Below are positions 814 to 19,141 of a stretch of DNA of 64,000 nucleotides, one piece after another. The first letter of the stretch is position 1. Every line of letters begins with the position of its first letter. The DNA comes from Dioscorea cayenensis subsp. rotundata. Lineage: Eukaryota; Streptophyta; Magnoliopsida; Dioscoreales; Dioscoreaceae. Made by a program: the position numbers and the translations under genes. The stretch covers positions 27,335,916-27,399,915 of the forward strand of contig NC_052489.1 in assembly GCF_009730915.1 (NCBI RefSeq), written 5' to 3'. The notes under the pieces were generated by a model, which was not told the DNA's origin, searched no databases, and worked only from the letters and a program-made list of their open reading frames with translations.

Positions 814-1282
814 CTAACCTGTCCCGCATCCCAGAAGAAAACAGTGACCTAAAATAATCACAGCTGGATGACAGTACAACAAATGAGGCATTGAAAGTAG
901 GCAGATCGAGCAATTCCAAGCCACTCCTTCAGTTGCCTTAACTTCCAAGCTGATGACCCTGCAATGGATAACATACAGTGAAAAGATCGATATAAAATAC
1001 CACTTCGGAGGGGAAAAAAAGCCCACTGAGTAAGTAATAAGAAAATAGAGTTGCAAGCTTCGTGATCTAGCAATTGATCATCATTACTCAAAGAGTACTG
1101 GAAAATATGAATAACCATTCTCTTATTCACCTTTTCCATCAATTTGTTCTACAAGAGCCTAACATTGTCTTCTCTACAAGTACATTACTGTTTTCCTAAT
1201 GTGTCAGTTGATGCTATTGGACATGGTGAGGAGGACTTACGTAAATGTGTGGCAAGCTGGTTCAACTTCAACCGTTTCAAGT

Positions 1283-1330
1283 GCTTGTGTCAGGTCACAA
1301 ATTGGCGCTTGTGTCAGGTCACAAATTGGC
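1283..1330. repeat. 24-bp tandem duplication in BTB relic
   Basis: Two identical adjacent 24-bp units lie at 1283-1306 and 1307-1330. Read on the minus strand they duplicate eight residues (PICDLTQA). The unit length keeps frame. Perfect identity suggests a recent replication-slippage event. Confidence 0.85.
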
Positions 1331-2033
1331 GTATAAGGTCCCCATTTAGGTAATCCTCGCTGGAGCATGTACAATAATGACTTTAAGCCACAAAACTTGG
1401 CAATTTTTTCCACAGGCCCCACATACTCAACCTCCACTTGGATCATGCCCGAATAAACATATTCCAAAATCTTTTTGAAACCATTGCATCCACCTCCTCA
1501 GATAACGCCAACTTCACTTCTGAACTTACTTGGTTTTAGCTCAAATACATGCCTCTCTGTGGACACATCACCCAGTTTCTTGTGATTGAGATTTTTTTCA
1601 GAAGCCAATAGATGTGGGTATCTTGCCAAGATAATGACACTATGAGCGTTCAGAACTTGACCATTTGAAAATACAAATTGCAAGTCAGCAAGTTCATTTT
1701 CATCTAGTGTTCTTTCTAACCTTTTGCCAAGCTTGCTTGGAAACCCGTAAAAGTTGAAGAAGCTTAGAACATATGCAACATATGAATTTGTCCCTGGGCT
1801 AAAATTTTTGGACAAAACATATTGAAGGTTCTCAACAAGAAATTGAGCTTCAGAAATTTCACACAATGTACAGTGAACTTTGCCAATGGAATTTTTTTGA
1901 TGATTACATCTCCTGTCTAAGGCATTGCATAGCTGCGCAAGTGCCTGAAGACAATGAAATAAAACCAAGTTCTCCCCTTGGCAATCAGTGGCCAAAGATT
2001 CTGGTATCTTAATGATCTAATTTCTTGTGCATT

Positions 2034-3084
2034 GTAAGTTCTTTTTCTTTTTAGTTATTTTTGTTTTGAAATATTTACCATACCTGGAAGTTTTTTATTT
2101 GAATTGAAAATTAGCCTTAACTTTATTTATTTATTTTTTCCGATGTAATACTCTGCCCGAAAAATAACGATCGATAAAAGACATGTTGCGCTCCTTCGAC
2201 AATTTTGAGTTAGACCGTAGCAGACCTCAGATCTGTTCATGCAGCAGTACATTTCATCGCGACAAAACATCACTTTCATCCGGATATCTAGTCTATGGTC
2301 ACGAACATTTGGAGATCCACTGAGCTATCGACATTAATCGCAATCGAAGACGCTCTTTTACGATGAGATAGCTTTTTAAACGGTTAATATTATAGCCTGA
2401 ATCTATTCAACCTTTATCGAAGATGAAAATTCTATTTTGGAGAAGAGAGGTGTATATATCAGTCATTATCAACAGATGCTTACATAGTGATACAAAACTT
2501 AGTAGGTCAGTCATTCCTTCCCATATTGGCAAATGCATGCTTTTATATAAAGATATTTGTCAATATGGGAAGGATTGGCTAACCTACTAAGTTTTATATC
2601 ACTATATAAACATCTGTTAATAATAGATGATATAATATATACACCTATCTTCTCCAAAATAGGAATCTCATACTCTGATAGAGTTGAATAGCATCCCAAA
2701 CTTACAATATTAACCGTTGTTTGAAAACTATCTCATGTTAAAGAGATATCTCCAGTTGAAATTAATGTCAGTACTCTAGTAAATACTCCAAATGTTCATG
2801 ACCATAAGATTGTAGACATTCGGATAAATGGTATTCTGTCTGTGATGAAATGTACTTGTTTGGTGAACAAAGCATCTGAAGGGTTGCTCTTACAAGTTCA
2901 AACTCAAAGTTGCCAGAGAATGACAATTTAACATGTCTTTTATGCATCACTACTTTTGCAGCAAAGCTATTACATCGGAAAAAATAAATGAATAAAGTTA
3001 AGGCTAGTTTTCAACTCAAATCAGAGACTTCTAAGTATGGCAAACATTTCAGAACAAAAGTAATTAAGGTGAAAAAGAACTTAC
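2034..3084. repeat. Large imperfect inverted duplication (about 500-bp arms)
   Basis: The left arm (about 2034-2532) is the reverse complement of the right arm (about 2555-3084), with only about 20 bp between them. Near the centre the arms match at roughly 85% by eye, for example around 2425-2530 against 2555-2660. Further out they fall to roughly 70-75% with small gaps. The matching block starts next to a GTAAGTT donor-like site at 2034, mirrored by the donor of the 3086-3181 exon at 3084. The block covers intron, an exon (about 2768-2967 on the minus strand) and following sequence of the BTB relic. A transcript across it could fold into a long hairpin. The left arm carries noticeably more CG dinucleotides than the right. 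Confidence 0.88.
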
Positions 3085-3181
3085 CAATTTGTTTGTTGTA
3101 TCAGCAGTAAATCTTAGAACTCTCTCATTTCTTAAACAAAGAATAGCTTCCAGCGCAAGCAATATATCTGAGACAGAATCC

Positions 3182-4260
3182 TGCAAGGACAAGAGCAAGA
3201 ATTAATGGCATAAAACTTCATCTCTGGAAACAACTAGACTCCTGTTATGCTGTTAATTCTGACTTAAAGATCTGAGCTAACAATCACCATTCAAGATGCA
3301 GCATTCAATCAGAAATTGAATCACATGTCACAGCTCATTTCATTTAAAGGAAATTCTGAATTCAAATAAAGAAGCAACACTTCAATAACAAACAACTCTA
3401 AATCAGATATAAGATGATCTCCTCCACATCACTAGCTTAGCATACACACAGTAATATATCCATGATTTAACAGTTCAAAGAGAAATGAGAACAATCAAAC
3501 CTCAATGACTGAGAAGTATTACAAACATTAAGAAGATAACCAACTAGAAATCCAGAAGAACAGCTCTTCAGATTCCCAGAGAAACCCAAACATCCCTTCT
3601 CTCAAGCTTGAGATAAACCAGGCCCAAGTTCCATCAATTCACAGCTTGTACTCTTTCTTTCCTGTTTCTCTCCTCCCTTTATTGCTGATCCTTCCCGGTA
3701 GAATGTACCTGCGGAGTTGAGTGCTTAACTTCCTCTATCGCGTTGCCTTTCGACATGTGTCTCCCACTATCGTCTTTTCCCCTTGATCCAGCTCATCATG
3801 CATGTGAGCCTCACTCACACTTTTACCTTTGTTGACCACCTTGTTGACCACCTTCAAAGGATATATAACAACTCCATATTATTGTAAACAGCTTTCTGGT
3901 GTTCTCTAGCACACAATATCATAATCACCATATCCAGAAAACTCCACTTAAATAGAAAAATAAAAAGAAATAACAAGTCTTGAAACATTTGGCACAACAC
4001 TCAAAAAAAAACATACAAATAAAGAAAGAAAAAAAAAAAGGGGAGAGATTGACAGTGAAATCACTTGATGCCGAGAGCAAGGGCTTGCCCTTCCGGCCTT
4101 CGAGGACGACCTCATCGCACCGACGAGAATGAGACACTGATCGATGGGCTTGAGAACACGAGCTCCAAACGGGCTCGCCTTCTTGAATGATCTTGATGGG
4201 CCCAAACCGCTACTTAAATAAAACGAAAGAAAACAGGCCCAGTAACTGATTTCATGCCAC
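3182..4260. other. Upstream region of BTB relic; no certain gene
   Basis: It probably holds upstream introns or the 5' region of the BTB relic. Two minus-strand stretches look mildly coding. One is near 4070-4200 (read as VWSSCSQAHRSVSHSRRC and following), the other near 3710-3790 (ending at a CAG/GTACAT donor-like site). Neither could be tied to a family. A G-box core CACGTG lies at 4258-4263. The poly-A run near 4030 and AT-rich flanks are otherwise unremarkable. Confidence 0.3.
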
Positions 4261-4537
4261 GTGTCAGTATCTGGAAAGCGCTTTCTTGCCTCGTGATCAA
4301 TATGCTTATTTTACACACATGTAATTACTAATTACATTACAGGCAAATCAAAAAGGTAATTAAATACAATTAAAGGAATCAATTATTAAATTAGATATCT
4401 CTTGTTCATTGTCTATTGTTGTTCAATGAAACATATATCAAATGATCACCTGTGACTACAACTTCAGTATTAATTACATTCATTCTGATTCAGAGAATTC
4501 TGAAAAAAAAAAATGAAACAATGAAGATAGTGAAATA

Positions 4538-7211
<2,674 letters not shown>

Positions 7212-9681: not shown

Positions 9682-12600
9682 TTAGCTTGGCACTGACTCT
9701 GAAGTCCTTGGTCCACTGCTACCCCCATGAGAACTAAAACCGGTAACAGGCATAGATCTCCGAGCAAAATCAAGTAATTGCTTGCGCTGGCGCTCATCTG
9801 TGTGAGGAAGGCTAGCACGTAACAACTCCACCGGCATTTCTCGGCTGATAGCTCGAGTTGCCTCTGGGCCAAAGACTGCTGTATTTGGTGCCTGCATAAG
9901 TAGAGACTGCATTATACTGTCATATTTACTAAGGCAGTACTTTGTGAGAAGCCCAAAGAAAGCATCAAAGGAAGCCTGCCAGAGAGTTCGATTAGGCATG
10001 CCATAGTTGCTTGCAGCATGGCCATCACTGAGGAGCTCTGTAGCTCTCTCTAGGACAGATTTGATGATAATGGAAGCTCCATCACCGGCAGAACTTCCTA
10101 GAGGACGAAGTGGTGGTTGTTCTGATGAACAGACCACAGCAGCAAGACAGGCACTAAGCGCACTCAGATCCATACCTCGCACACATGTAGAAACAGTCTT
10201 TGCAAGGTTGATTGTTGTTTCTGCTGCATCAGAATCCATAGGTAGCCCACCAAACAAGAACCTCAGGTGGCGAAAAATGGCCATGCAGACAATACGCGTA
10301 AGCTCACTGCCAGGGAAGAGTAGCTGAAGATAGCGTGAAAGAAGTTTACGACCTTTAGGAAGAGATACTAAGCGAAGGAACACAAGGTCATCCTTGGGAG
10401 AGAGCCCATCCGAGTGACCAGCTTTGGCTGGGCCTAGCGGGTCAACTAGCTGCAGTGATGCTGCAAGTCCTTCAAGTAGGACCTGTCGCTTCCGCTTAAG
10501 TTGGGAGCCACCATCTTGCAAGGGGCTGAACTGTAATAGCCGATCAATGTCATCAACATCAAGAAGAAGACAAAGTCCATCCTCAACTGTAATTCTAGCT
10601 GCCAGCATCGGCTCCTGCTCTAGAGGCTTCACAGACGATTTTTGGTCAATGAAATCTCCAGATGCAGACTGTGCATCAACTTCTAGGAGAGGACGAGGAC
10701 GTCGAATGGAGGAGAATGAGATCCTCCCAAGAGCATCAACCTGAAGATATGGATGCTGTTCATTATTAGAACGGGCTCGTGAATGCAAATCCTTAACAGA
10801 ACTAGGAGCAAAATGGTGCTTCAGTCTTGACCCAGCAGATTTCTTTGCTAGACAAGCTTGATGGTAGTAATCGTCTACATAAGGATCATTGCTGTGGGTT
10901 GCCGCATGCTGCATTCTCTGTATGCTTTCAATCTCATCAGCTGACATATATTTGGATCGGAACTTAGGCCAACCACTATCATTTTTCAGGTTGCTGGCAT
11001 CTGCAGCCTGTGGAGGATAGCGTGTGTTCGGCCTTCCCCTGTGTGCAGGTTTAATTCTCTGGTCTCTTGTGTCATTTATCCCTAGTGTTGCTTCAAACTT
11101 GTTCATTATCTGAGGCTGCGAGAGATGTGGACCTATCAAATGGTGCTGCATTTGTGAGAAATGCGATAGAGGTGGTTGAAGTTGTGGCAGTCTGTGCTGT
11201 TGCTGCTGGAGCAATAGTTGTGAATGCAACAATCCGTTTGGAGGAAACTGTTGAGGTAATAAGTTAGGTAACATGTTGGAATGCTCCCCTGGAAATGGAC
11301 AGGGTTGGTTCAACCAATTGCTCTGCTGTCGACTGTTAATGGAAGAGCCAGGCCCAAATTGAGCCATATTACCACCATAATTAAATCCAGGATGTGGCCC
11401 TGCCAAAGGATGCTGAGTGCCAGAGAAAGCAGAGAGATTTGGTGAAGAAAAGGGCATATGGAGACCACTAGCAAGAGACGGAAGGCTTGATTGACGGGAC
11501 TGGCTTGGGGAAAGCTGTAACCTTGCCCCAGGTGGAGGGTATGAAGTAAAATTTGATTTTGGAACAAGAACCGGCTCACTCAAACTGTGTTGTTGCTGTT
11601 GCTGCTGTTGAGGATACGAAGATGTTCTGCACAAAGGTTTGGAATCCTGAAAACACATTTTAGAGGGAGAAGGCTGTGACCACCATCTTTTCCCCTCCTG
11701 CGCATTTTCAGCATCAAAAGTTTGCAGGTCTAACCAATTTAAGTCTGACTCCCTGGTCCAGTCTGCGGTCGAGGAACCTGAAAAGATACATTCTCATCAA
11801 CTCTTTAACGAATTTGAGAAGAACCCATATGTTTACAGGAATATTCACAAATTAGCCTATGAAGGCAAATAAGCAGCAGTGTGCATGTACAAGCTGAGAA
11901 ATACTTACTAAAATAAGATACTAAAAATTGAGCACAAGGTAGTAGAATATTTAGAATAAAAATAAAGAAGAATAGAAGAACAGAAGGTCAAAATCCTTTA
12001 TTTCAGGAATAGAAAATAAGCACCAAGTGAAACCGAAAACATATTAGGAATTTAGAATTTAAAGCATTTGCAAAATTAAATTCCCCCATAACCAAGCCAA
12101 ATTGTGCCACAATAGGGAGGGTGCCATCATTTTTTTTCCAGCAAGTAATTTGTGAATGTTTGGAGCCACAAACACCCAAGAAATGATCATGAATGCTTTC
12201 TGGAAACGGCAAATTGTGAATAGCATTTGGAAAAGCAATTTTACAGTCTCTGCGTACACTCAGTCAACAGAAACACTAGTAATAACATCTTGACAGTTTC
12301 ACCACTAGCAAAGGACACTCATCCTATTTCATTTGCACATCAAAATTGTATGCCTGTATCTAAATTTCAAATCCTAGTGCAACCTTTGCATGGGAGACTA
12401 AGCCAGTTAAAAGAAAACCATAATCATTTCCAGATATGCATCTCCGACAAAAGAATAAAGCTTTGTACACCAAATTCATTTACTTCGGCACCCAACCCCT
12501 CAGAGGAAGTCCTAGACATTAGAAGCAACAAAATAAATCCATAGCCCAAAATCGGCTGCTACAGGCCAATTCTGTCCATCCCTAAGAAATATTATGTCTA

Positions 12601-15600
12601 CTCTACTTTGATATCAATTATCTGCAACAAATCAGGAGATGGGATAGACAATATGTCGAGCAAGAAATGTGTTTTAACTTATACAACGGCAAACAATATG
12701 ATGCAGAGCATGGCCCGCTATTAATAGCAACCCATATTCTGCATTGCAATACTAAGACACATTCATCACATAAAGAAAGCTTTGCAAACCTCTTTGAGGT
12801 CCAAAAACAGTAGAAGATAAGAGGTAATAATATTTAAAAAGAAAGAAATTTACTCACTTTCCCTCGAGATAGATCCGCGATCACCAATCACACCGACATT
12901 CCTTGGATCACTCACAGCTCTATTTAACTGAAAGTGAAAATAGAAAATAAATGTAAATCCCAACGTCAAATTTAGAGAAATCAAGCCAACGAACCATCGC
13001 AAGCCTACCAGCTCAAATAGTAAAACAGTTAAAATTGGTAATAATAGTACCAGTGTCATGCAGCTAATGAGCAAAAATACACAAGCTGATAAACCTTGAT
13101 ACATACCAATAACAGGGAAAAGCAGCACCATCTTACAAATGGCAGTTAAGTACATAAATCCCAATCAGTTCACTTTTCTTAATTTCAGATAAAATGCAAC
13201 TACTACATCAATTCTTAATTTCCTCCAGCTTTTATATTCCTTAAACAACATTTTAACAAAAATCCTCTACCAAGTTATTTCAAACTTGTACAACTTTTCA
13301 TGTAGTCAACACAATAACCTGATAACAAACAATCCAGACAGTTCACCGAGAAAAAATCACACACAGAGTAATGCTAATTCATTAAGCTGCACAATTGGAG
13401 AAACCTTACTTATAAGACTAAATGACTCAAATAAGCTATCATCGAAATAAACCAAGGTAAAAGAGTATAATCAAAGATTAAAATTTCTGTAACCGTTTGG
13501 ATAGACAAAAACCAATAAATATAAACAAGGGCCAAACCAATATCCAACTCAGAACCAAAGGGCAAAAGTAAGACTGATAATTTATTTGAGGCTTCGAGCC
13601 ATTCTATTTAATCACTCTAATAATAATTTAGGCAGAGGATTAACCTTGGCAAAAGTACTAGTGAGATCATCAATATCGGATAAAGACTCCAAGACTTCAC
13701 CCTGCAAAATAAAAATATCTCAGATAATAGTTAAATAGGGGCAGATAAGGCAGATGACAACAAGAAATTTAACACACTGCATGCAAAAATGGAAGGTTGA
13801 TCATTAGGTGTAACTTCTCATATAAAAAAAAAAAAAACACAAAATCAAGAAATACAGGACAAAAAAAGAATAAATAAAAAATAGATGGAGTAACTTCTCA
13901 TATTCCACAAATAGAACAATCATTCATAGTGTGAGCTCTGTGGAAGAAACAGCGAAAAATAAATGCATCTTCATATTCCATGAATAATACCCAAGTAATG
14001 GCAGTATTCATAAAAAAAAAAAGGGGGCAAAAAACAGATCATCATGCACAAGCTGATGATGAGAAAGGATAGAAGCAGAAAAATTATTACAATATGCAAC
14101 TTGATGGAGAAAGGCTCTAATGAAGTTAAACCAAGTCAGAAGATTGTAGAATTCCTGAAATTCAACTGAAGTGAATTTGTTAGATCTGCAACAAAACTCT
14201 TAACAGGAGGCTGATGAAGATTTAACAATGAAACTAAAATAAGTAGGCCAAAAAATTTGATGGAAAATTGCAAAAAACCAGTTGGGATATCTACTTCTGC
14301 TAATTTCTTTTGTAAACTAGAAATAGTTCAGCTCAGAAATCACATCAACAGAAAGGTATGTTTTCCCTTAGATGCAATAATAGGATAGCTAGCCTAGTAC
14401 AAAGGGGTTAATGAGGTGAATGTAAAACAGAAACAAGGGATCTGGCTACCAATCCTTTCAAAATATGAAATCACCTCTTCTCGATCTCCAATAGCGGAGA
14501 AAGGATAGTCCTCTTCAAGACCCGACAAGGCAGCACTAGCGACACCATTGTCATCTTCCAAACCACCTAACTCGATCTCTTCCATAACACCCTTACCAAA
14601 AAAGGCATATTGCTTAGCATCAAATCGCATGCCATCTGCAAAAGTGGGAAAAATCAGTACATATTACAAACCACCATGAAACGACAAAGATGTCAATACA
14701 ACACGACAAAAGATAACCATGAAGGCACTTCGCATGCAAGAGGATACAACGTTTACTAAAATTTTCTCAGGGAAGCAGAGAAGAACACTCGCCTTGCAAA
14801 TCCACATCTAAATCATGATAAACAATACATAATGCAGTGTCTTGTTGAATAGTAAAAATGTGCCATGGCAACCATGATCACAGGAACATAGAAGACCAAG
14901 CTGGAGCTTTTCCATCAACCACCACCACAAGAAACTATAAATCAACACACTCAAGTACCCAATCTCAGTTGAAAAAAGGTGTATCTCAACAAAACAAACT
15001 CATAAAACAATTGAAGCAAGTAAATAGCATTGCAGCATCAAAATTTTTGCATTTAAACCTAGCGTCCATGAAGATCAATATACCAATTTCATCATCAAGC
15101 AACAAACTTCTCCAACTGAAACAGTGCTACCACAAATAATAACCATAAATTATCCAATAATTAAAGCAGTAAGAAGCTATAATAAACACAGCAACACGAA
15201 CAACGAAACACCATCAGTGAATCCACAAACAAACCATGAACATCTAAACAAAACCACATAAAGCAAACCCTAAATCAGAAGCTCTAAAACAGAGAAACCA
15301 CTCTCCATCCAAAACCAACCCAAAATTCGCCAAAAAGAACTCAACTTGAGCTCTCTCCCAGCTCGATCCAACACCAAACCCCACAAAACAAACACCAAAA
15401 TTCTCATCCAAGCAAACCCAATCAGCAGATCTACACACCACTCCCCAAACAAAATCACAAGCACAAAAACAAAGCAAAAATCCATTAAAGAAAAAAAGAA
15501 ACCAAAAAAGGAAAAGAAAAAAAAAACAATCACCTCCTTCCCCACCGCCGAACGCCACAAAACCCTTATCAAGATCCGAGTTCCGGCCCTCACCAGAGAG

Positions 15601-15609
15601 CCCCTCCAT
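9682..15609 (-). CDS. PAT1-type mRNA decapping activator
   Basis: It is a homologue of yeast Pat1 and Arabidopsis PAT1/PAT1H, a cytoplasmic P-body protein that links deadenylated mRNA to the LSM1-7 ring and decapping. Five coding exons join in phase: 15534-15609, 14475-14635, 13645-13701, 12858-12927, 9682-11777, giving 819 residues. The N-terminal block MRFDAKQYAFFGKG and GEVLESLSDIDDL is the conserved acidic region that binds the helicase and decapping factors. The middle of the large last exon is a Q/P/S-rich low-complexity segment (poly-Q, SQSRQSSLPSLASG). A conserved turn follows (KYMSADEIESIQRMQHAATH). After it comes the helical C-terminal domain (GRKLLSRYLQLLFPGSELTR, MDLSALSACLAAVV). 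The start at 15609 (MEGLSGEG) is preferred over an in-frame upstream ATG at 15675 because the extra residues look like 5' UTR. The gene appears whole. Confidence 0.92.
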
Positions 15610-15729
15610 CGAAAGACCTAAAACCCTACTCCCTCCGCAAACAAAGCAAAGATCGAAGAAACCCCAAGCCACCAAAGAACGAGATCGAAAGAAACCCTAA
15701 ACGAGATCCCAGAAAGTTTGTGGCGTGAA

Positions 15730-15820
15730 AGCCATCAGACTAAATAAAACTTAGCGAAGGGCCTTCTCGCACAATAATTCGCACCAAGAACCAAATCAAA
15801 TGATGATGAAATATAAAGAC

Positions 15821-15861
<41 letters not shown>

Positions 15862-16409
15862 CTTTTGTATAAAAAGTTTGGTTGAAAATAAAAAAAAAAA
15901 TATTAATTTTATTTATTTATTTTTGTTTTTTTATGATATTTTATGTGGGAATGGTACTCCCTCAACTCCATGGATATGATTGATCAATCAAATTATATTA
16001 TATATACCTATATATATATATATATATATGTATGTAATATATTTTTATTTTATTTTAAATATATTAGTTAAAATTTTTATTTATTTCAATAAAAATAGTT
16101 TACCCACTGATTTTTTTTAATACCTTGGACACTAATCAGGTTCTCAAAAGCGATAGACATTTATAATAATTTTTTTTTACAAATTTTATATTTTAAAATT
16201 ATTTATTTTAGTAATTCAAATCTCTACACTTGATCAAAACTTTCTAGTATGAAAAAATAATTCCACCTGCTTAAAATAATTTTAATATAAAAATAACTTT
16301 TATTCGAAAATCAAGCATTAAAATACTTCTCTATTAAATAAACATTTAAAGATTTTTATCAAGGTAAAAAATTATTAAAATATAAAAAATTATAAATTTA
16401 TTATATATA
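15730..16409. other. AT-rich spacer upstream of PAT1
   Basis: It contains the PAT1 promoter (about 15680-15800) and then very AT-rich DNA with a (TA)n run at 15824-15860 and a shorter one near 16011-16030. No gene is visible. Confidence 0.5.
15824..15860. repeat. (TA)n microsatellite
   Basis: About 18 TA units lie in the PAT1 upstream spacer. It is a likely hypervariable locus and possible cruciform. Confidence 0.95.
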
Positions 16410-16628
16410 CTCATCCGTTTTTTTTACTTGTTATGTTTTAGATCTCGTCTTTGTTCCTTTTTATTTGTCACGTCAGAAATTTTATACAGCATTAAATAAA
16501 TCATAATCAACTAAACATTAAATAATGAAATTTTTTATAAAATATAAGTAACCAACTAACTTTAATCAATTTTTTTTAATCAGTGTGAATTAGATAGGTA
16601 TGACATATAAAAAAGAACAAATAGAGTA
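16408..16628. mobile_element. Stowaway-type MITE (Tc1/mariner family)
   Basis: The left end (TACTCATCCGTTTTTTTTAC) and the reverse complement of the right end (TACTCTATTTGTTCTTTTTT) match as terminal inverted repeats. They are close to the plant Stowaway consensus CTCCCTCCGTT with the usual TTACTTGTYATG-like continuation. TA target-site dinucleotides flank both ends. At about 220 bp and AT-rich, it has no coding capacity. The degenerate TIRs suggest an old insertion. Confidence 0.65.
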
Positions 16629-19141
16629 TATATATATGTATATATATGAGGTCACGTCTTCCGAAAAAATCCAATGATTTCCACATAAATCATTAAATAT
16701 TTAAATCAACGTTTAATAACTCTACTATCCGTTCTTTATAAACCTCAATACTACCTATTATCTCTCATATTTTTTCATCTCTACAAATAATCACAAATGA
16801 CATATAATGTTATATATGTATATTGAATATAAAAGAAAAAAAGTTATCATTAATAATTTATATTTTTTAATCAAATAAAAGAAGAAATGGATAATAAATT
16901 GTTAATATTAATGTAAATACTTGGAGACAAGCAAATCTATTAATTAATAGATTGCTAGATATCTTTATATTATTTATGTTGCTTGCAAGGCTGAAGCACA
17001 TGCGAGTGCATTGACTCAGAACGGTCAAGAGATTGTTATTTTAAAATGATTTTATATGGAGAAAATTGCCATTAATAATCTCTCCAGAATTAGTTTGGTA
17101 TCCAAAAAAGACTAAAAAGTAAGTCGAAATTTTTTTTTTCTTCTTTTTTTTCTTATATTTTTCCATGAAAAGTATGGATTTGCATTTGATGTACAAATTT
17201 AGGTAAGAGCGTTGGCCTGCGCTGACCTAGACGTTTACTTGGAAAAATTGCATAAAAATAAATAAATAAAATAAAATAAAACACTGTTTTTTTATTTATT
17301 TATTTATTTATTTAATGCTTTCATATGGATGAAAAAGATGGATGGTGTATTTCTTATTTTTCTATGAGTACCATTGACATTTTATTTTAATTCTATTTTA
17401 TAATAATTGTGAATTAATTAGATTGTCCTTCGGATGAAGGCAAGTGAAAAACAGGAAGGAAAAATTAATTAAATAGTAATTAAAAAAATTGATGCACATG
17501 CTTGGCCTTGGCATTCATGCAATTAAAAGCACAGTGTTGTCCTGTCTGCATGGCAAGGTCGGCACGTTATTCATACAAAAACTGACCCACTTTCATTTAA
17601 TTCTTCTTCTTGTTATTCTTATTACTAATATTGTTATTATTATTAATATTATTATTATTGTTTTTGTTGTTATTATTTATTAAATGAGAATTAATTAATT
17701 GATTTTTCAACAGCATTCACAATCAAATGCCAAAATGAGGTATATTGAGAAACACATGGTTTGGTAGAACGAATTTGTTTTATTTTATTTTATTTTATTT
17801 TTATTTTTTTATGTTGCAAAAATAATAATAAAAAAAAAAGGCCGACAGAGATAATGAAAAAGCATGATCTGATCTTAAGAAACAGTAAACATTAATCAAG
17901 AATACCACCCCAAGAATAATTAGATAGTGACAAGAAACAACCAGGTGGGTCCATTTGAATGGATTGAATTGGAAACCAACCTGACTTGATTGGACCCTAT
18001 TGCCCTCACACCCAAAATTGGACTTCAAGTGATCATCATCACCTTCTTCTAACACCTACTTAAATAAACACTAAAATTGATTCTTAGTTGGCTTTAAAAA
18101 GAACAATATTCTCCATTAATACTTTTTTTTTTTTTTAATAGTCTTCGTTTCTCAAGAATCTCAAAGTCTAGTTCTAGCAAAATAGAGATTCAAACTCAAA
18201 ACCTCTTCCATTAATTTTTTAACACAAGAATATATATACACATAATATAAAAATTTGACTCAATTAATACTAATATTTTTTAAAATTTAAAATATATTAT
18301 TATTAAGAAATTTTAAAATAAATTATTAAATTAATTAGGGGAACAATGTTTATATCCAACCAAACGTTTAATTTATAAACTCATTTTTTTTTACAAACCG
18401 GATAAATAACATCAAAAGTGTGCACATGCAATTCATTAATATCTTAACCCATCAATATTTTCACCTGTGTGAGTTAAGATTTAATACTACCTTCTCAATA
18501 ATGATATTTAATGACGCCATAAAATATCTTATACAAAGGGCCTATCGCAATAAACTAAAAAGCCGTTGACATATACTCTAATTCATGTTCACTCTTACGT
18601 CAGATAATCCAGGCTTATAAACAGTAAACTCAAATGTATGTACAGAGAAATTGAAAAAAATCAATCATGGGTCAATAAAGAATTAAAATGAAAAACATAG
18701 TTTCATGGTGCCTATGTTACTTTAACCAGATGAGGATGGAGCCAAAAAAGAGTAGGAGCGCATCAAGTGACTCTTGGTTCACAACTTTAGCTTTTTCTCT
18801 AGCTTTATTGCTAGTAAAGTTAGGGCAGATAGAGTGGGAGATGGGGCCTAAAAGGAGACATGTGGTACTTTGGGCTCATAAAGTACTCTTAAAAACGAAG
18901 CTTAAGGACCACATGACAAATTAGACCTTCTCTCTTAAGCTATTGAAGATGCATCATGGGAATAACAGAAGATGTCCCCATACATGCTCAAACTCTATCC
19001 TTGGACATCAAACTATAGCCAATCAAACACTGTCATATATGCAAGGAATCATGAGCATGTTTTACTTTTATTTCTGTAATATTTCTGAACATAAAAGTTA
19101 TATAATAATAATAATAATATTGTCAAGAATGGAAATTATTT
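16629..19141. other. AT-rich spacer, no gene supported
   Basis: It holds simple repeats: (TTTA)n near 17283-17313, (ATT)n near 17625-17680 and (TTTTA)n near 17778-17810. The chance frames at 17489-17683, 17801-18055, 18688-18924 and 18943-19149 lack family signatures. The right end is presumably the 3' UTR of the PPR gene. Confidence 0.5.

Follow-up and report, generated by a model that had tools for sequence, protein, structure and literature searches.

In the inverted-duplication model of plant MIRNA birth, the arms match the target beyond the 21-nt small-RNA site. That model starts, as does the locus described here, from the inverted duplication of a gene or pseudogene segment (PMC3237417), but here we are dealing with an aging 0.5 kb stem in a dead gene, with no significant sign of selection on pairing. 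In maize, the partial inverted gene duplication Mu killer has been proposed to produce a long hairpin RNA through read-through from a flanking gene (PMC3440606), and both the partial duplication of a gene and the possible read-through have their likeness at this locus; Mu killer, however, is derived from a transposon gene and silences MuDR, whereas the parent here is an ordinary gene. Pseudogenes formed by gene duplication have been considered as sources of small RNAs in rice (PMC2708354), as is the case here. Finally, the template-switch mutations described as creating hairpins (PMC8794818) likewise place a reverse-complement copy near its source and involve four switch points, but the RNA helices described there span 2 to 10 bases, and the copy here is far longer (about 0.54 kb).

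The window is the whole 64,000-nt stretch of DNA analyzed (C19:27,335,916-27,399,915 of a 584 Mb assembly in 2,249 contigs), and it contains on its minus strand a decayed BTB gene (W). Comparison by BLAST of the first 8 kb of the window together with the 17.9 kb preceding it against itself (the coordinates of this joined stretch are given as ext) reveals a tandem copy of this gene (P) at window -9283 to -4498, about 9 kb from W and outside the window. Direct aligned pieces of the two genes are 86-94% identical, with the exception of one 77% piece at the 5′ end. The large exon of P has an open frame of 398 codons with zero stops, and 376 of its codons give a Pfam BTB match (E 1.4e-6). The BTB part of W contains one TGA and is frame-broken, whereas the same exon is open in P; the two W halves joined with an X match the BTB model at E 4.6e-4 (20.8 bits against a cut-off of 20.5), and none of six single ORFs is above the cut-off (best BTB match E 0.016). 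Upstream of this exon P has further open frames resembling earlier exons of the gene, and in two of them Pfam gives no domain above the cut-off. A protein search of the assembly with the 376 P codons finds six places, namely P itself, three pieces of W, the left arm of the palindrome described below and one place on C8 that is non-significant (E 0.97). P is the only other homologue found assembly-wide with a search tool that scores best candidates only, and it supplies the parent BTB paralogue that the initial annotation had expected elsewhere in the genome, 9 kb away and with its frame open through this exon. A PDB sequence search returned only two matches (E 0.05 and 0.06) and no lead, and a literature search on Arabidopsis At1g04390, which we take to be a possible relative of the BTB gene, also gave no lead.

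Within W there is a palindrome; with blastn (word 11, dust on) no other inverted pair of the window reaches E<=1e-5. It had been described as two head-to-head arms of about 500 bp with a gap of about 20 bp, and this geometry holds: the left arm (L, 2034-2534) and the right arm (R, 2555-3084) are 20 bp apart and 75.5% identical across 1,092 columns (blastn). A fall of identity from roughly 85% near the loop to 70-75% outside had also been claimed, but complementarity is 86% both in the outermost 117 nt and in the 80 nt next to the loop, and the lowest-identity and most-gapped stretches sit between them. The outer limit of L is at about 1991, 43 nt past 2034. The arms do come from the BTB gene, as proposed, but with one intron and not several; they run from the end of one exon (in L only) through this intron into the beginning of the large exon that follows. 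A reading of the R exon as intact was rejected after comparison with P: relative to P, this exon has lost 1 nt and carries a nonsense change, and the same two changes are present in L. The features are listed in Table 1.

Table 1. Positions of the palindrome and neighboring features of W in the window.
Feature	Position	Strand	Basis or comment
Left arm, inverted copy of exon end, intron and large-exon start	1991..2534	+ (gene-sense)	blastn to P, three-way alignment, uninterrupted P exon
Loop or spacer, 20 bp, still collinear with P	2535..2554	.	GCATGC at 2535-2540 is the putative switch departure point
Right arm, original W pseudogene sequence in collinear position, 90% identical to P	2555..3086	-	blastn, three-way alignment
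Intron within right arm	about 2968-3084	-	followed by start of large exon
Anomalous middle of left arm	2148..2440	+	66 L-specific substitutions in 291 columns; 26 nt lost, 2 gained; CpG 2 to 17
Deletion junction in W, about 1.16 kb missing	3083..3086	.	four common bases ACCA remain
Downstream part of W large exon with BTB domain	1240..1992	-	frame broken near 1498-1530
Remaining upstream exon piece of W	3085..3201	-	within W 3083-3242, homologous to P ext 12394-12553

There are several informative features of the junctions. First, the P exon reads ...AAAAGCATGC-TGTTGGAGTGAT-GCCACTGATTG... unbroken across the point at which L is inserted in W, and is thus an empty site; in the large exon of W, the middle 12 bp of this stretch are replaced by L. 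Second, L matches P in inverted orientation (window 1989-2550 corresponds to P ext 11281-10691, 77.6%, blastn), bearing out the earlier view that a BTB gene segment was duplicated in inverted orientation; L is an inverted copy of the segment adjacent to it. Third, the three-way alignment shows that L includes 43 nt of the preceding exon that are present in P and missing from R. R is without them because W has lost about 1.16 kb between P ext 11238 and 12394, with a junction that keeps ACCA, the bases common to both edges. As judged from P, the deletion removed from W the remainder of the upstream exon together with one or two further putative exons, as read from the open frames. The comparison with P also led us to reject two other readings, one in which the arms end by design at the splice donor GTAAGTTC, which is the edge of this deletion, and one in which a separate exon starts at 2016. 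Fourth, there is no clear microhomology at the departure junction and only 1 bp at the return junction, and no target-site duplication was seen by eye at the arm junctions.

An inverted copy beside its source, a tiny spacer, little junction homology and an empty site in a relative are the marks of a template switch, and a local switch during replication is the simplest fit for the origin of L. On leaving its template after the GCATGC of the large exon, DNA synthesis would have resumed on the other strand, about 20 nt back. From there it would have run in reverse through the exon start, the intron and the end of the preceding exon before returning to a position 12 bp downstream of where it had departed; a deletion of about 1.16 kb would afterwards have trimmed the outer end of R. 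We consider it likely that this is an aging palindrome made when W, probably already dead, copied about 540 bp of itself in inverted orientation by template switching, that R was later trimmed, and that the structure most likely has no selected function.

The order of these events can be read from the differences among L, R and P. L and R both carry a TCA>TGA change and the 1-nt exon deletion, and P has neither, which indicates that L was copied from W and that the frame of W was probably lost before the inverted copying, W then probably being a pseudogene when the copy arose. Both of these inactivating changes fall within 2148-2440, with the alignment at the 1-nt deletion being less sure; a third 1-nt difference common to L and R lies in an intron T run and is not polarizable. 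The 43 nt present in L and P but not in R place the deletion in R later than the copy, and the loss of about 1.16 kb would thus postdate the palindrome.

At the ordinary ends of the arms (208 columns) there are 12 L-specific and 15 R-specific substitutions, and five sites at which both arms differ from P, where the change could have occurred either in P or in W prior to copying. Such near-equal counts are as expected for two unconstrained sequences of one age. The initial annotation had pointed to the birth route of young MIRNA and hairpin-siRNA loci, but the corrected 0.060 and 0.076 substitutions per site in the ordinary parts of the two arms indicate that it is not very young. Across all 499 columns the L-specific, R-specific and both-arm counts are 78, 27 and 18. 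Within the exon, R-specific changes are 6 synonymous and 15 non-synonymous, L-specific changes are 23 synonymous and 47 non-synonymous with 2 to stop, and where the two arms jointly depart from P there are 8 synonymous and 7 non-synonymous changes in addition to the nonsense site. Differences fall almost equally on the three codon positions, and for this reason, together with the broken frames of L, we rejected the idea that the arms are two diverged coding copies.

The middle of L departs from this pattern. In its 291 columns there are 66 L-specific and 12 R-specific substitutions, and 13 sites at which both arms differ from P; the L-specific rate is about four times higher in the middle than at the ends (66/291 vs 12/208, Fisher P 9.4e-8), and R shows no such contrast (P 0.16). 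Relative to the inferred source, this part of L has lost 26 nt and gained 2 (P 3e-6), and its CpG count has risen from 2 to 17, where random placement of the same substitutions (20,000 draws; substitutions only, indels not simulated) gives 8.9 +/- 2.4 (P 0.0017). Pyrimidine transitions also exceed purine transitions here (31 vs 13, P 0.0096), an excess that is not significant when set against the R and P counts (18 vs 16, P 0.16). On these counts, ordinary neutral decay does not explain the rate of change and the CpG excess in the middle of L.

The leading alternative for this region, which is compatible with the preferred origin by inverted self-copying, is that the middle of L is partly a sequencing or assembly artefact, with nanopore miscalls and missed bases in the second arm. 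Miscalls and missed bases after inverted-duplicate junctions are described for nanopore reads (PMC7229812), and an artefact would fit an excess of change that is sharply bounded and on one arm only, the preponderance of missing over added bases, the CpG-creating nature of the changes, and the finding that no third copy that could have acted as donor turned up in a DNA search of the 584 Mb assembly. We nonetheless consider it only a substantial minority possibility. First, such errors should strike either arm depending on the read strand. Second, two states common to L and R against P sit in this very region, and noise would not give these. Third, the ends of L have diverged normally, to the same extent as those of R, and L holds the 43 nt present in P but missing from R. 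This last pair of observations (ends diverged as in an old copy, and sequence of P in L but not in R) also led us to reject an artefact of the whole arm in the form of a fold-back read.

A long hairpin RNA had been anticipated, and a transcript of either strand is indeed predicted to fold in this way (-518.7 kcal/mol gene-sense, -486.3 plus strand). The gene-sense fold of 1991-3086 compares with -225.5 +/- 9.3 kcal/mol for 20 dinucleotide shuffles (z about -31), and pairs 904 of the 1,096 bases, with 441 pairs between R and L and 45 G-U pairs; the longest unbroken helix is 44 bp including G-U, obtained with a slightly longer stretch folded. Any RNA spanning the locus would fold into a hairpin with about 440 pairs, a possible substrate for plant Dicers. 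Similarity to the putative coding target extends beyond a small-RNA site, R being 90% and L 77-78% identical to P. Against the P exon pieces tested, 269 of 512 21-mers from R and 74 of 524 from L are within two mismatches (<=2), those from L falling mainly in clusters around 1991-2004 and 2432-2509, plus three windows at 2294-2296.

It is possible that the locus acts against P through hairpin siRNAs. In its full form this reading would have W transcribed from its own promoter or by read-through, with dicing of the product into 21-24-nt siRNAs that reduce P mRNA or bring about methylation of P. The stability of the helix, the matching 21-mers and an open parent exon 9 kb off are all in keeping with such an active locus, and read-through transcription of W is conceivable given the epimerase-like gene upstream on the same strand and in the same direction. 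However, it seems improbable that the hairpin operates in this way. W-sense RNA is predicted to give siRNAs antisense to P from L only, the middle of which mostly no longer matches P. The P exon is still open, so any silencing has not caused the loss of P. The bias toward changes that favor pairing is not significant, L-specific transitions being 31 pair-keeping and 24 pair-breaking (P 0.42), or 27 and 17 in the middle of L alone (P 0.17), in both cases with low power; weak as this test is, nothing in it favors selection on the hairpin. The window has no match to Rfam 15 families at gathering score. The functional reading, with small RNAs targeting the parent, is not favored, and absence of a selected function at the palindrome is the most likely situation. 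A further, improbable reading is that the middle of L is real and records a sharply bounded, one-arm burst of change inside a natural palindrome, whether because copying at the template switch was error-prone or patchwork, or by escape of a once-active hairpin from silencing its own parent 9 kb away.

It could also be supposed that L was derived not from W but by ectopic copying from P or from a third BTB copy since lost or unassembled. The middle of L looks foreign to both W and P, and L matches P slightly more often than it matches R, agreeing with P against R at 27 sites as compared with 18 at which R and L agree against P (P 0.23). This count does not favor a copy from W, but constraint on P would account for it. 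The nonsense change and the 1-nt exon deletion common to L and R and absent from P, the failure to find a third copy in the assembly, and the nearly even distribution of differences over codon positions, unlike that of a functional paralogue, make an ectopic source quite unlikely. A fold-back or MITE-like transposon with the arms as its terminal inverted repeats would be palindromic with a short loop, but we reject this as extremely improbable, since R is collinear gene sequence present in P, inspection by eye shows no target-site duplication, only W and P were recovered in DNA searches of the 584 Mb assembly, and this reading is contradicted both by the empty site and by the genic sequence within the arms.

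With inverted self-copying of W as the preferred origin, the locus is a pseudogene with an inverted duplication that is ordinary in kind but well resolved. It is a clean natural case in which the source, the empty site and the order of events can all be read and the tandem pair includes just one parent copy, and it could be used to ask whether such palindromes yield small RNAs before decaying, and how the middle of one arm comes to change about five times more than that of the other.

Other features of the tandem units were also observed. The gene upstream of W on the same strand is UDP-glucose 4-epimerase-like (TIGR01179 E 9.2e-19 for one exon, below the model's whole-protein cut-off), and its 3′ end is duplicated beside the BTB gene (window -858 to -143 and 4365-5066, 88% identical), so that the unit repeated in tandem consists of an epimerase fragment joined to the BTB gene. 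A stretch of about 3.3 kb (ext 13730-17064, window about -4186 to -852) that lies between this fragment and P has inverted ends of about 200 bp (78%) and no equivalent at the W counterpart; it is possibly a DNA transposon. Relative to P, W has a 628 bp insertion at window 3243-3870 that begins TGTTAT and ends ATAACA, is flanked on both sides by the 5-bp repeat ACTCC and looks like a solo LTR; two 82% copies are present in the same orientation 4 kb apart at C19:21,669,253 and 21,673,298. Lastly, the BTB exon of W contains a perfect 24-bp tandem duplication (window 1283-1330) that is in frame, and the corresponding segment is single in the P protein.
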